DNA of 23,058 nt, taken from positions 1-23,058 of IMG/VR virus record IMGVR_UViG_3300028393_001996. One strand, 5' to 3'. Each line of letters opens with the position of its first letter. Position 1 is the first letter of the stretch. Below are positions 7,065-18,956 of this stretch, piece after piece. Source of the DNA: a virus. The notes under the pieces were generated by a model. The model was not told where the DNA came from. It searched no databases and saw only the letters and a list, made by a program, of their open reading frames with translations. The translations under genes and the position numbers were made by a program.

Positions 7065-7634
7065 TTATTTTAAGCCAATTCTTTTCAATATTTTATTGCG
7101 TTTCTTCATTCCATGATCCAATGCCATGGGTTTACATTTACTAGTATACACGATACCATTCAAATGGTCAAGCTCATGCTGGAAGCATCGAGCAGACATG
7201 CCAACTAAAGTGGTTTCTTTCCAAACACCCATATAATCTTGATAAGTTACCGCAACTTCTTCTGGTCTGGTGATTCTTAATCCTAAAAATGGAAATGATA
7301 AACATCCTTCTACCATATGAACTTCTGTTTTAGATTTCAATACAATACTAGGATTAAAAAATGCCACATAATTATCTTCCGCACCCATTACAAACATACG
7401 ATATGGGAATCCACATTGATTGGCTGACAGTCCAATACCACGATGCATTTTACACGTTTCTACCATTGTAGAAGCAAACTGTTCAGGATTTACTGGTAGA
7501 TTTGTAAAGTCGAATTCTGGTAATACTTCTTTCAGAATTGGATGACTTTCATGTACCAAATTAAATACTTCAGGTTTGGTAACTGTAGGACTCTTTAATG
7601 AATCCGTTGTATCAAAAGTTATAATTTCACTCAT
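7065..7634 (-). CDS. def: Peptide deformylase
   Basis: A 189-aa metalloenzyme that removes the N-formyl group from nascent proteins. All three hallmark motifs are present: GIGLSANQ (66-73; usual GxGLAAxQ), EGCLS with the metal-ligand Cys (109-113), and HELDH (153-157) with the two His ligands and catalytic Glu. The first 40 residues form an N-terminal part before the catalytic core. Phage deformylases are common in marine T4-like genomes and are thought to sustain processing of phage or host proteins during infection. The start overlaps the gp46 stop (ATGA). Confidence 0.95.
   Translation of the reverse strand: MSEIITFDTTDSLKSPTVTKPEVFNLVHESHPILKEVLPEFDFTNLPVNPEQFASTMVETCKMHRGIGLSANQCGFPYRMFVMGAEDNYVAFFNPSIVLKSKTEVHMVEGCLSFPFLGLRITRPEEVAVTYQDYMGVWKETTLVGMSARCFQHELDHLNGIVYTSKCKPMALDHGMKKRNKILKRIGLK
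7143..7171 (-). promoter_or_regulatory. Possible internal sigma70-type promoter before the DruA-like gene
   Basis: TTGACC (7171-7166), 17-bp spacer, TATACT (7148-7143), matching 5/6 and 5/6. It lies within the def coding region around the conserved HELDHLNG codons, so coding constraint may produce it. If real, +1 falls about 70 nt before the DruA-like ATG. Confidence 0.3.
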
Positions 7635-14382: not shown

Positions 14383-15729
14383 TTACATCAAGTTTTGAAC
14401 CTTGAAAATACGATAGTAAACGTTGCTGCGTGGGTTGATTTGGTTAGAACCAGCGCCATTGGTGTAATCACCTTTAGCAAACGGGTTAGCAACCATACCG
14501 TAACGAGTTTTGAAACCAATCTTAGGTTGGAATGTAAACTGGTCAACAGCACGAACCATTTGTAGCGGAACGTATGGGCAATAGAACAAACCAGCGTCAT
14601 AAGGTGAAGAACCTTTGTAACCGATTGTAACGAGTTCTTGATTGCTTGTGTATCCACCAAAATACGGGTCGATATAAACCTTGATACGACCATGCAACAA
14701 ACCAGCAAATGTATTGCCTGTATCGTCAACTTGGAGGTCAGTTTGCAAAGCAGGAGTATATTGCAATACACCAGCCATTGCCATTGCTGAAGCAACGTCA
14801 GAAGAAACGATCAGAACATTACCTTTGCCTCTACGAGTTTGCTTGGCAATCACGTTGGCATCACGTTCAATTTGGAAAATTAGACCTTTGAAACGCTCAA
14901 CTGACCAACGGCCGTTAGAGTCTGTATCTAAGTCAAATGTACCAGCGTTAGTTGTACCAAACTGAGCACCAGGAACGGCAGTCATGTAGATAGTACGAAT
15001 AACTTCACGGTTGATTTCAGCTAGGATTTCTGTAGACAGAATGTTTGACAATTCTGTTTCAGCATCAAGACCATGAATTGCTTTCAAGTCTTGTGCAAGT
15101 TCTAAAGAATACTCGGCTTTCAGAGCACGTGACTGAGCAGTTACAGTAACTTTCTCAATGCTGAATGCCATTTGCTGAAATACATCAGTTGTGTTATTGA
15201 TACCTAACGTTTCTGCGTGAGCAGTCGTCATGCCAATACCAGTTGTAAATGCGTTAGCAGTCAATGAAGCAACAGGGTTTGTACCAATATCGCTTGTTGG
15301 ATCTACTGTACCACGGAAACCGTATGGGTTTGTAGCAGAAGAAGAACCAGAGAAAATGGTATTTGCTTCGTTGAAGAAAGCTTCTGTACCAGATTGGTCA
15401 GCGTAACGAGCACGCATTGCAAAAATCAAACCGGTAGGACCAGTCATTGGCTGAACACCAGCAACGTCATAAGCGATTAAATTTGGCAAAGAACGGCGTA
15501 CCAAGGAAATCAAAATTGGATCAAAATTAGAAACACCACTACCAACGTTAGTTGGACCAGCAGAGTAATCTGTTTCGTTCAAAGCTTGACGGTCTTGAGC
15601 CATAGCTTGTTGTTGGTTTTCCAAAACAAGAGCTGTAACAGCTTTCTTGTATGGGTCTTTAATAGCTTCGAGTTCTGGATGTTCCAGAACAGGTTGCCAT
15701 TTCTTACTTAATTCTTCGGTCATATACAT
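14383..15729 (-). CDS. 23: Major capsid protein gp23
   Basis: A 448-aa HK97-fold capsid protein of the T4 type, processed by gp21. N-terminal scaffold-like segment, then LVRRSLPNLIAYDVAGVQPMTGPTG (the most conserved gp23 block), YSLELAQDLKAIHGLDAETELSNILSTEILAEINREV, and NVLIVSSDVASAMAMAG. T4 gp23 is 521 aa; members of this length lack insertion-domain sequence. A predicted gp21 cleavage site, LNE|T at residues 50-53, would remove a 52-aa propeptide. AAGGA precedes the first ATG at 9-nt spacing. No gp24 vertex gene is seen nearby. Confidence 0.97.
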   Translation of the reverse strand: MYMTEELSKKWQPVLEHPELEAIKDPYKKAVTALVLENQQQAMAQDRQALNETDYSAGPTNVGSGVSNFDPILISLVRRSLPNLIAYDVAGVQPMTGPTGLIFAMRARYADQSGTEAFFNEANTIFSGSSSATNPYGFRGTVDPTSDIGTNPVASLTANAFTTGIGMTTAHAETLGINNTTDVFQQMAFSIEKVTVTAQSRALKAEYSLELAQDLKAIHGLDAETELSNILSTEILAEINREVIRTIYMTAVPGAQFGTTNAGTFDLDTDSNGRWSVERFKGLIFQIERDANVIAKQTRRGKGNVLIVSSDVASAMAMAGVLQYTPALQTDLQVDDTGNTFAGLLHGRIKVYIDPYFGGYTSNQELVTIGYKGSSPYDAGLFYCPYVPLQMVRAVDQFTFQPKIGFKTRYGMVANPFAKGDYTNGAGSNQINPRSNVYYRIFKVQNLM

Positions 15730-15761: not shown

Positions 15762-16940
15762 TTATTTGGCCATTGATTGAGAAATTGCATTTGCATAAAT
15801 GTTCATTGAAGGATCTGTAGAAACGGATTTCTTTTCTTCTTCAACTAATACTTCATCTAAAGCAGAATTATCCGCAACTTTAACATCAGCTTTGAAATAT
15901 GATTCTTTCAACGTGCTTAGTTTGGTAACAAATTCTTCCTCAGTAGTAAAATCCACACCCTCTGCGAGTGATTTTAATTTTTCTACTTGAGTCTGCGTTA
16001 GGCCTTCACACGCTGTGTAGATAGCCTCAATTTTTTTCTGTTCGTTTAACTCTTTGCTGAGTTCAACACCATGGTTGATTTGTTCATTAAGAGCAGATTC
16101 GAGCTCTTCAACTTTGCTTGTCAACTCTTCAACAACGTCCACTTTGTCAGCAGGAATGTCGATATAATGTTCAACAAACAAGTTACGCAAACCACCAATA
16201 AAGTCTTCCACGATTTCTGCACGGAGACCTTTTTCGATTGCGATTTCATTGTCTTTGATCCACTCTTCAACCATGTAGTTAAGATAGTCATCAACCTTAG
16301 CAGCCAAATCTTCTTTAACTTCCTCAACAGCAGCTTCAAACTGTTCTGTAAGTTGAGATTCAACATCAGCAATAACTTCTTCTGCACGAGCAATAACAGC
16401 AGCTTCAAAAATTGTAGAAGCTTTGGTTACAAACTCTTCTGAAAGGTTTTCACCAGACAGTAATGCATCCATATCTTCTTTCATTTTAGCCTTACTCATC
16501 ATTTTTTTAATCATTGCTTTATCTTGTTTTTCATCTTCGTGGCCTTCTTCTTTTTCTTCGGACACAACATCATCTTCAGATTCGGTTTCTTCACCATAAG
16601 ATTGGAAAGTAGCGCCAGGATTTTTAGCCATCATTTGTTTGCCGGCTTTGCCTTCGGGTTGCTCTACAGAACCAGATTGAGCTGGTTGGCTTTTGAGTTT
16701 CTTCATTGGCTCAGAACCTACAGGAGGCGTTGCGCCAGGAGCAGTAGCTGATGGTACGCCGTCACAATAGTCAGGATTTGCATCGGTTGTTTTTAAAGGT
16801 GTATGGCCAACGTCTACTTCTTTTGTGCCGTAAGCAACATCACCACTTAGTTTTGCTGGTTTATCTTGACCACTTTTCTTTGATGCAACAGAGGCACCAA
16901 GAATTTCTTTAGCGGCTTCGGACAGATTAAATTTTCCCAT
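15762..16940 (-). CDS. 22: Prohead core scaffold gp22
   Basis: A 392-aa scaffold that nucleates the prohead and is then degraded by gp21. Residues 150-350 form the T4-like helical core (MDALLSGENLSEEFVTKASTIFEAAVIARA, EEWIKDNEIAIEKGLRAEIVEDFIGGLRNLF). Residues 1-145 are a disordered Gly/Pro/Lys then Glu/Asp-rich extension absent from T4 gp22 (269 aa). gp21-type sites are visible as LNE at 284-286 and 298-300 and LAE at 325-327. AAGGAG precedes the ATG, and a TATAAATA late promoter lies about 30 nt upstream. Confidence 0.93.
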   Translation of the reverse strand: MGKFNLSEAAKEILGASVASKKSGQDKPAKLSGDVAYGTKEVDVGHTPLKTTDANPDYCDGVPSATAPGATPPVGSEPMKKLKSQPAQSGSVEQPEGKAGKQMMAKNPGATFQSYGEETESEDDVVSEEKEEGHEDEKQDKAMIKKMMSKAKMKEDMDALLSGENLSEEFVTKASTIFEAAVIARAEEVIADVESQLTEQFEAAVEEVKEDLAAKVDDYLNYMVEEWIKDNEIAIEKGLRAEIVEDFIGGLRNLFVEHYIDIPADKVDVVEELTSKVEELESALNEQINHGVELSKELNEQKKIEAIYTACEGLTQTQVEKLKSLAEGVDFTTEEEFVTKLSTLKESYFKADVKVADNSALDEVLVEEEKKSVSTDPSMNIYANAISQSMAK

Positions 16941-16977: not shown

Positions 16978-17622
16978 TTAAAGTTTTTTGAAGAAGTTCT
17001 CAAAAATGCGTAGACTTACTTCCTCAATCTCTTTTCGTGAAGCTTGGCGAATTTCTTGAATTGCCTGAGAGTGATCCTGTTCGGTCCAAACACCGTTGAC
17101 TAACATCCATTCTTTACCCTCCATGATACCTTGTACAAAGGCACCAGGTGCGGAAGGGTCTGCTACAATATCTGCCGCTGTGGCTAGATAAAAATCGGGC
17201 TGAACAATGTTAACACCATTGACATTCTTCAAAGAGCCCATTCCTCTTGAAGATACACCTAATTGAGCACCGCCTTCAATAAGACTTCTGGCGATATTAC
17301 CCATTGGAGTATCTAAAACCTTTGCTTTTCCGATCCATTGCGTACCATCTTCTTTTAAAGATTTGATTAGAATTGCAACACGGTCCAAATTAATTGATGG
17401 TGATTCTGGATGACCAAGTTCACCAAATGCACGGTTTTTATTAATATAATCTTCTGTGTAACGATACACTTCTTTTTTCATTGTATTGAATTCATACAAA
17501 CGGCCGTTACGGTTTTTCTTTTCTGCAACTAAAAAAGGACCTTCGATGTGCAATTCCTTCTTGCCATCAGCATCTTCGGTAATATAATTTACCGTTTCGT
17601 TAATTTCTTTTATGAGCTTCAT
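16978..17622 (-). CDS. 21: Prohead protease gp21
   Basis: A 214-aa serine protease of the herpesvirus-assemblin-like type, matching T4 gp21 (212 aa). It matures the prohead by cutting gp22, gp23 and the core proteins. Conserved: LHIEGPFLVAEKKNRNGRLY, GELGHPESPSI with catalytic His71, and GAQLGVSSRGMGSL with the nucleophile Ser at 124/125, the SSRG motif of the family. The start overlaps the stop of the basic gene upstream (ATGA). Confidence 0.96.
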   Translation of the reverse strand: MKLIKEINETVNYITEDADGKKELHIEGPFLVAEKKNRNGRLYEFNTMKKEVYRYTEDYINKNRAFGELGHPESPSINLDRVAILIKSLKEDGTQWIGKAKVLDTPMGNIARSLIEGGAQLGVSSRGMGSLKNVNGVNIVQPDFYLATAADIVADPSAPGAFVQGIMEGKEWMLVNGVWTEQDHSQAIQEIRQASRKEIEEVSLRIFENFFKKL

Positions 17623-18014
17623 AATCCTAATGCCCTTCTTTTTCTTAAAGATGTTCTTCTTTTTCTTAATGATACATTTAACTTGGATCTACGCTTAAAC
17701 TTTGATCGCCTAGATGCCACCTTGCGATTTCTAAGTTCCGTAGGCATCATTCTTGTTAACTTACCACCACGAATGGTATAACCTTTTACAGCCGAAAACT
17801 TTTTACGGCGTTGAACCTTACCTTTTCTGACCCTAACACGAATCAGCTTGGTTCTACCCATTTTTAAAACATTACCTTCGCCTAACAACTCATCCGTTAA
17901 GCGAACTTTAATCTGGTTGACTTTTTCTTCAACCAGATTTTTGATCTTTTTGTCTAATTCATTCCTTGCTTCTACAAGTTCATTAGATAGAAGTTTTGAA
18001 ATAAAAGAGAACAT
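17619..18014 (-). CDS. Very basic prohead-region protein (gp68-position)
   Basis: A 131-aa protein with two halves. Residues 1-50 are an amphipathic, coil-like helix (LLSNELVEARNELDKKIKNLVEEKV). Residues 52-131 are extremely Lys/Arg-rich (RVRVRKGKVQRRKKF, then RRSKFKRRSKLNVSLRKRRTSLRKRRALGL). It occupies the slot of T4 gene 68 (prohead core protein) before gp21, but the sequence is not recognised. The basic tail could bind DNA, or the acidic gp67-like and gp22 proteins. It overlaps both neighbours by 1-4 nt, so it is a true gene. Confidence 0.75.
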   Translation of the reverse strand: MFSFISKLLSNELVEARNELDKKIKNLVEEKVNQIKVRLTDELLGEGNVLKMGRTKLIRVRVRKGKVQRRKKFSAVKGYTIRGGKLTRMMPTELRNRKVASRRSKFKRRSKLNVSLRKRRTSLRKRRALGL

Positions 18015-18556
18015 TACGGTTTAAGACTATAGTTTCCGTAGTTAAATGCAGCCGGATCATTAAATTGACCACGCTGGTAGTGTTCGTTATCTTTTCGTAT
18101 TTCAACTATAATAGTATAACTTGCATTGGCTTGTTGGCCTCTGGTTCTAACAGCAATATCACCATTGTTATTTGCTGTAACTGTTGGGTTTTTAATTGTA
18201 ATCCAATTTCCATTGCCATCATATTCACCATTACCTTGCATGAATATAATAGGAGTTCCATCTCCTGCATCATTGCTTGCAGTATTTCTCCAAAACAATT
18301 GAACATCACCAACAGATGTATCAACATCGTACCATAATCTATTGATGGTTAATCCGTAATATGGTTTTGCTGTGTTGCTTTGACTTAAAGATGAACGCAA
18401 AGGAACATTATTTGCATCTAAAGCACCATATAATGAATTTGCTGAAATTCTAGATACATTATTTTCTTGGCCAGAACCATCAAATTCAGCAGTTAATTTA
18501 ATAACTGCGTGTTGTGTATCATCTTTTAAAACTTGATATGAAAATATATTCGCCAT
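18014..18556 (-). CDS. Beta-rich virion structural protein
   Basis: A 180-aa protein, rich in Asn, Gly and Ser, with alternating strand patterns (HAVIKLTAEFDGSGQE, YGLTINRLWYDVDTS, DVQLFWRN, YTIIVEIRKD) and the C-terminal RGQFNDPAAFNYGNYSLK. No signal peptide or membrane segment. Similar proteins lie in the head cluster of cyanophage-type T4-like genomes and are annotated only as virion proteins; a capsid decoration or neck role is possible. AGGA lies before the ATG, and TAATG joins it to the basic gene. Confidence 0.7.
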   Translation of the reverse strand: MANIFSYQVLKDDTQHAVIKLTAEFDGSGQENNVSRISANSLYGALDANNVPLRSSLSQSNTAKPYYGLTINRLWYDVDTSVGDVQLFWRNTASNDAGDGTPIIFMQGNGEYDGNGNWITIKNPTVTANNNGDIAVRTRGQQANASYTIIVEIRKDNEHYQRGQFNDPAAFNYGNYSLKP

Positions 18557-18565
18557 TTTTTATTC

Positions 18566-18784
18566 CTATTTAAATTCTGATGGTACCGATGATGACCATT
18601 GCATCGATTCGTAAGGTACGGTTACATATTTATTAATCTTATCCACATAATATAATGCCACTCTCTGACCATTAGGAAACTGTCTAACAGATTTACGTTT
18701 CATAATCAAAACGGCAGGAGGATCCATAGTTTTGGATTCTTCCAATTTATGGTTTTCTGCCATGAATTGTTTAAGAGTTTTCAA
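18566..18784 (-). CDS. Small internal-head protein candidate with capsid-targeting N-terminus (TTG start)
   Basis: A 72-aa protein starting at TTG (18784), read as Met, with AGAGGA about 6 nt upstream. The first residues, MKTLKQFMAEN, closely resemble the T4 internal-protein capsid targeting sequence (MKTYQEFIAE|A), which sends proteins into the prohead and is cut by gp21 after the Glu. The remaining part (RKSVRQFPNGQRVALYYVDKINKYVTVPYES) is beta-rich and unknown. The next in-frame ATG lies within the motif and has no ribosome site. It overlaps the gp67-like gene by 14 nt, inside the head operon. Confidence 0.75.
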   Translation of the reverse strand: MKTLKQFMAENHKLEESKTMDPPAVLIMKRKSVRQFPNGQRVALYYVDKINKYVTVPYESMQWSSSVPSEFK

Positions 18785-18956
18785 CAGAATCCTCTTCGCC
18801 AGTATCTTCTTCGGGTTGCATTAAGTTTTGTGCAACCGCTTGTTTTGCAGCTTCAATGTGAGCTGTCACTTTATCGTGAATGGTGGAATAGAGTGCATTT
18901 CTGAACTCAACACCATTGTTATCTTGTGCGTAATCTACAATTTTTCTAGTATCCAT
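18771..18956 (-). CDS. 67: Prohead core protein, gp67-like (PIP)
   Basis: A 61-aa acidic protein in the T4 gene 67 position after gp20 (T4 gp67 has 80 aa). It shares the layout of a short helical head (FRNALYSTIHDKVTAHIEAAKQAVAQNLM) and an acidic tail (PEEDTGEEDSVENS). T4 gp67 is a prohead core protein cut to internal peptides. The ATG is 10 nt from the predicted late +1, and GGAG lies in that short leader. Confidence 0.8.
   Translation of the reverse strand: MDTRKIVDYAQDNNGVEFRNALYSTIHDKVTAHIEAAKQAVAQNLMQPEEDTGEEDSVENS

Follow-up and report, generated by a model that had tools for sequence, protein, structure and literature searches.

The window analyzed here, that is, the whole stretch of 23,058 nucleotides, is a 23-kb virus record from a T4-like phage, and its minus-strand genes include those for the sheath, the tube, the portal, a gp67-like protein, a 72-aa open reading frame (ORF), a 180-aa protein (p180), a gp68-like protein, gp21, gp22, and gp23. 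The question raised by this locus is whether the 72-aa ORF, read from a TTG, encodes a protein bearing a capsid-targeting sequence of the T4 type and, if so, which role such a protein might play in the head. T4 is the phage in which capsid targeting sequences were established by experiment; in the present case, the start site chosen during annotation decides whether the targeting-like tag becomes visible. The features considered are the following (the arrow marks a predicted cut):

18566..18784, minus strand: 72-aa ORF, with a TTG start and a TAA stop.
18791..18794, minus strand: Shine-Dalgarno-like GAGG, 6 nt before the TTG and within the gp67 coding sequence.
18755..18784, minus strand: capsid-targeting-like leader MKTLKQFMAE (residues 1-10), kept in all complete relatives.
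18752..18757, minus strand: predicted cut 1, E10↓N11 (M8-A-E10), from motif analysis.
18734..18739, minus strand: predicted alternative cut 2, E16↓S17 (L14-E15-E16), nearer to L/I-X-E (PMC9026906).
18725..18727, minus strand: internal ATG (Met20), a possible choice of gene callers.
18587..18724, minus strand: conserved core, residues 21-66 (DPPAVLIMKRKSVRQFPNGQRVALYYVDKINKYVTVPY...), predicted to form a three-stranded beta sheet.
18771..18956, minus strand: gp67-like prohead core protein (phrog_1064, E 4.9e-6), overlapping the ORF by 14 nt.
18014..18556, minus strand: p180, the 180-aa downstream neighbor, located downstream in all informative loci.
17619..18014, minus strand: gp68-like basic 131-aa protein, assigned by position, with a weak phrog_1064 match (E 0.039).
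16978..17622, minus strand: gp21 prohead protease (Peptidase_S77, E 5.6e-33; phrog_207, E 1.3e-75).
15762..16940, minus strand: gp22 scaffold (phrog_237, E 1.4e-84).
14383..15729, minus strand: gp23 major capsid protein (phrog_138, E 9e-160), L-N-E↓T preceding its conserved mature portion.

Concerning the distribution of the gene, tblastn searches of 50,697 phage records (E ≤ 1) returned no relative of the 72-aa protein (18784..18566, minus strand; translation MKTLKQFMAENHKLEESKTMDPPAVLIMKRKSVRQFPNGQRVALYYVDKINKYVTVPYESMQWSSSVPSEFK) from cultured phages, and none was found in GTDB genomes; p180, too, had no tblastn match in cultured phages. Relatives were found in IMG/VR, 261 in the first search and at least 362 with a profile search; the ORF shows about 99% identity in L001 and L084, and it is present in a single copy per contig in the nine contigs that were searched whole. 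From five seeds, 346 loci were collected, along with 114 distinct proteins whose start is of the K-[STN] type; the starts of the relatives were chosen by this K-[STN] rule, and positions 4 and 7 of the protein played no part in the choice. Three body architectures are found behind one leader, which all of them keep, the inserts differing between the mid and long forms:

Short form, 68-78 aa: the core DPP...VTVPY alone.
Mid form, about 100-187 aa: the core joined through an acidic linker to a helical domain at the C-terminus (the linker/domain type being 156-187 aa).
Long form, 232-241 aa: a further N-terminal domain with an EF-hand-like loop.

In all 114 distinct relatives, the start codon falls at the position of the window TTG and reads ATG, GTG, or TTG (TTG or GTG in 55 of the 68 distinct short forms). 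No conservation among relatives was detected upstream of this position, and a Shine-Dalgarno-like sequence precedes the start in 54 of the 68 short relatives. These data, together with the GAGG 6 nt upstream, confirm the observation made in the initial annotation, i.e., that the TTG is the true start, with a good Shine-Dalgarno, of an ORF opening with a tag. The internal ATG, whose choice would erase the tag, was ruled out as a start: Met20 is missing in 21 of the 68 distinct short relatives, therefore this reading is wrong, and the relatives share the codon at the TTG position. Moreover, conservation is not confined to the sequence after the internal ATG, as would be expected of a spurious tag; the leader is conserved too, and the claim stands. 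The position of gp21 as the third gene downstream of the ORF was likewise correctly given, according to the Peptidase_S77 and phrog_207 matches. The interpretation placed on the ORF, taken as a whole, is partly supported, as detailed below.

The leader of the window ORF, MKTLKQFMAE, is of the capsid-targeting type; the T4 record carries MKTYQEFIAEASVVKA at two loci. According to the T4 work, as reviewed (PMC9026906), the ten N-terminal residues of IPIII are enough for it to be incorporated, residues 4 and 7 being responsible for targeting and residues 8 and 10 for processing; Asp10 in IPIII blocks processing and leaves targeting unaffected. Across the 114 distinct relatives, position 4 is always hydrophobic (L/F/I/Y/M), as is position 7 (F/L/I/V/Y). 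K2 is invariant, a count (114 of 114) that is partly due to construction because the starts were chosen by K-[STN]; nevertheless, K2 still holds, since the 15 distinct complete ORFs outside the rule include MKRLKDF, MKKFSDF, and MKKFNHF starts. The alignment of the first ten residues thus upheld the T4-like leader, with its hydrophobic positions 4 and 7, and not the Glu10 that had been described as part of it: this column is not conserved and is replaced by a sliding [LIM]xE. In five related contigs, ORFs of 50 aa or more offer 11,796 candidate start codons; a tag-like 7-mer opens at 9 of them, and five of these nine are the gene itself, one in each of the five contigs. Tag-like starts were also observed in two other genes on contigs of relatives, G003:C1:3731(-) in L176 (MKTFKQFVTE↓EYLEEKSPAWQR..., 106 aa, basic, DUF6321 with E 3.3e-19) and G001:C1:29597(-) in L165 (MKTFKQFSE↓AVKKPTG..., 99 aa), which, judging from these starts, may encode additional head-packaged proteins. 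The family yields a search rule for other head-packaged proteins.

The published cut motif of T4 gp21 is L/I-X-E (PMC9026906). The window ORF harbors two candidate sites, corresponding to a possible mature length of 62 or 56 aa: the 62-residue product proposed initially agrees with M8-A-E10↓N11, which fits [LIM]xE with a Met at P3, whereas L14-E15-E16↓S17 matches L/I-X-E better and would leave 56 aa. Glu10 is not supported as a universal cut site, since P1 of the [LIM]xE motif lies at residue 10, 12, 13, or 14, the next residue being mostly K, A, or S. In the 56 distinct spacers, a spacer being the stretch from residue 8 to the core, [LIM]xE is present in 49, vs. 13.7 ± 3.1 expected when the same residues are shuffled, and the strict [LI]xE in 36, vs. 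7.1 expected; in the remaining 7 the motif is missing, 2 of them having V at P3. Among the control motifs (other spacings, other end residues), none was enriched beyond z 1.6, and the spacings [LIM]E and [LIM]xxE were depleted. Because distinct spacers are not fully independent, the shuffle comparison on its own makes the evidence look too strong, and the count on a tree is safer: in a tree built from the core DNA of the family itself, P1 moved at least eight times; therefore, the motif was re-made or kept through repeated shifts. An apparent loss of Glu10 in half of the family was discarded as an alignment artefact, the motif having shifted position. The p180 tree, which gave 22 label changes vs. 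12 on the gene's own core, was dropped for this purpose since p180 has apparently recombined relative to the gene, near-identical leaders being observed in both deep p180 clades.

Similar motifs are present in the neighboring head proteins: the N-terminus of the window gp21 reads MKLIKEINE↓T, with I-x-E at residue 9, in the place of the T4 LIE-9, and the gp23 junction reads LNE or LTE before the mature part in all the relatives listed, L-x-E being found at the capsid-protein junction of T4, Melnitz, and HTVC008M as well. The family provides T4-independent evolutionary evidence for the two-part rule derived from T4 mutants, residues 4 and 7, responsible for targeting, being retained and the cut motif being kept but mobile.

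As regards the body, the strands of the core span residues 28-35, 41-47, and 52-57 in the AlphaFold2 model (pLDDT about 90), and the predicted mature protein has a pI of about 9.6. The median identity of the core is 87% (window ORF vs. 226 loci); the corresponding values are 80% for the portal, 83% for gp21, 85% for gp23, and 56% for gp67 and p180. No family match was found for the 72-aa protein in Pfam, PHROGs, or NCBIfam, nor in the PDB by sequence, and no fold or family match pointed to a function of the core: the structure matches of the 72-aa model in BFVD are uncharacterised phage relatives, and the chromo-domain/SH3-like small beta sheets proposed by Foldseek and VIA-align (E > 0.2, Z < 3) were taken as uninformative. 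The family profile A1 had no T4 match at E ≤ 1, and proteins this short may diverge beyond detection.

In L052, L056, L201, and other long forms, this head-operon protein carries the EF-hand-like loop SPDENGDGVLSPTELHHHLD, which suggests calcium binding in the virion or the prohead; EF-hand_5 matched in 7 of 37 (best E 1.4e-4). The structural model of the long form has low confidence (pLDDT 67), and no fold claim was built on it. A search for the long form among cultured phages gave a weak match in Melnitz, limited to the C-terminal domain. The C-terminus of the long form is also matched by the C-terminal domain of phrog_696, annotated as "major head protein", a cyanophage protein encoded far from the head genes (L397:1361-2227, S-SSM4 CYXG_00152; L391). 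The N-terminus of phrog_696 resembles the capsid protein just past its cut site (AGTGGFSG..GP.AGFDPV), and the label looks like a carry-over from this capsid-like stretch.

The order portal-gp67-X-p180-gp68-gp21-gp22-gp23, where X is the gene under study (hereafter, the slot gene), is held in every locus with flanks. Elsewhere in the window, the regions 7065-7634 and 632-1150 were read from their sequence as a peptide deformylase and a small heat-shock (HSP20) protein, respectively; both are often found in aquatic T4-like phages.

According to these data, the slot protein is probably a component of the prohead core or an internal head protein, tagged and trimmed by the protease. Residues 1-7 of the leader, with their hydrophobic positions 4 and 7, would dock the precursor onto the gp22/gp67/gp68 core during prohead formation; gp21 would then cut after the glutamate of [L/I/M]-x-E (E10 or, alternatively, E16) during maturation, and the cut would free a basic beta-sheet protein of 56-62 residues, staying inside the head with the DNA. 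The sequence data show the start codon, the conserved leader, the sliding motif, the operon position, and the conserved body; from there we infer that the protein is targeted, cut, and located in the virion, and that it serves head structure or assembly instead of acting on the host. A core as conserved as the portal, gp21, and gp23 favors a constant task in structure or assembly over a fast-varying injected protein.

The alternative that the slot protein is injected, i.e., targeted, cut, packaged with the DNA, and delivered to counter defence or to take over the host in the manner of the T4 internal proteins (IPs), is unlikely. This analogy draws on the leader and the cut motif, which are as in IPII/IPIII, on the small size and basic nature of the protein, and on a second body type in the slot (described below) that resembles the IP bodies swapped behind one tag. 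However, the T4 IPs are described as highly diverse defence proteins in which only the targeting sequence is conserved (PMC3012670), whereas conservation of the slot body exceeds that of most of the capsid operon; body conservation, together with the fixed position in the core operon and the single copy, points to a head-assembly or structural role over a variable IPI/IPII/IPIII-like protein.

Less likely still is that the slot protein represents a scaffold-like part of the core and, like most of gp67, gp68, and gp22, is completely degraded and lost from the head. The gene does lie between the gp67 and gp68 homologs, and encodes a small protein whose leader would attach to the core; yet the cut motif precedes the body, and the body, a compact and conserved beta sheet, shows in the alignment no [LI]xE recurring within its core, in contrast to core proteins with multiple cuts.

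Finally, the leader overlaps another gene. The 14-nt overlap with gp67 (window 18771-18784) occurs in 60 of the 68 distinct short forms, the gp67 stop codon overlapping codons 4-5 (Leu4-Lys5) in 60 of the 68 distinct short relatives, and codon 4 of the short relatives exhibits zero synonymous change; hence, leader conservation there is partly at the nucleotide level. The least probable reading, according to which the leader does not serve as a tag for targeting and owes its conservation to this overlap plus a generic amphipathic N-terminal helix (a helix 4-16 is predicted, with low confidence), must reckon with residue 7 and [LIM]xE lying outside the overlap, with the retention of the leader in 29 long forms and 8 short ones devoid of the gp67-stop overlap (as MKSLKDF or MKSFKEF in long forms and several short ones), and with the depleted [LIM]E and [LIM]xxE spacings, which a helix alone does not predict. 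The slot gene is probably translationally coupled to gp67. In the long forms, the start is ATG in 29 out of 29 and the gp67 overlap does not exceed 4 nt; weak, coupled initiation in the short forms may set the dose.

Coming back to a prohead-core or internal head protein, the comparison with known systems helps to place it. With T4 IPII/IPIII (MKTYQEFIAE), the slot protein shares a 10-residue leader with MKT, a hydrophobic residue 4, F7, and E10, a gp21-type cut motif, and a small basic mature protein (predicted here); unlike them, its body lacks any detectable sequence relation to theirs, its gene is highly conserved and single-copy within the core operon, and its cut position slides, P3 often being Met. 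Like T4 gp67 and gp68, it is small, encoded in the same portal-gp21 interval, and likely associated with the core, but it has one N-terminal cut motif and not many; moreover, it is not homologous to them, phrog_1064 matching both neighbors (17619-18014 weakly) and not the ORF. In T4, gp67 and gp68 stand alone in this interval, while in two marine cyanophages it is occupied by one small protein.

The closest parallel of position comes from Melnitz (MZ577097 gene 205) and HTVC008M (gp085), where an 82-aa hypothetical protein occupies the slot after gp67, overlapping gp67, with the leader T-L-S-[QN]-[FL]; p180-like proteins were observed at the same place in both phages. For the Melnitz group, the start reads VSKTLSQF..(E/N)LPE↓KDEH, and the Melnitz query detected at least 579 related stretches in IMG/VR; for the HTVC008M group, it reads MITLSNLRKLTTE↓K, and the P3 of TTE↓K does not match L/I. 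The body is unrelated to that of the slot protein, being probably helical, as read from its sequence, and devoid of the beta core. A slot protein with a probably helical body and a similar tag and cut site is found in SAR11 and OM43 phages, and the two-part rule is extended to a large uncultured group as well as to these cultured phages. Since LPE↓KDEH of the Melnitz group resembles LNE↓KEDH of the beta-core family, the comparison suggests that leader and cut site are of common descent in the two groups, the bodies having been exchanged. It is possible, if somewhat doubtful, that the gp67-gp68 interval of uncultured T4-like phages represents a dedicated slot, in which one leader with a sliding cut site would serve exchanged cargo (the beta core alone; the beta core with EF-hand-like and helical domains; a purely helical body), the cargo being an essential internal part of the head and not a dispensable injected protein.
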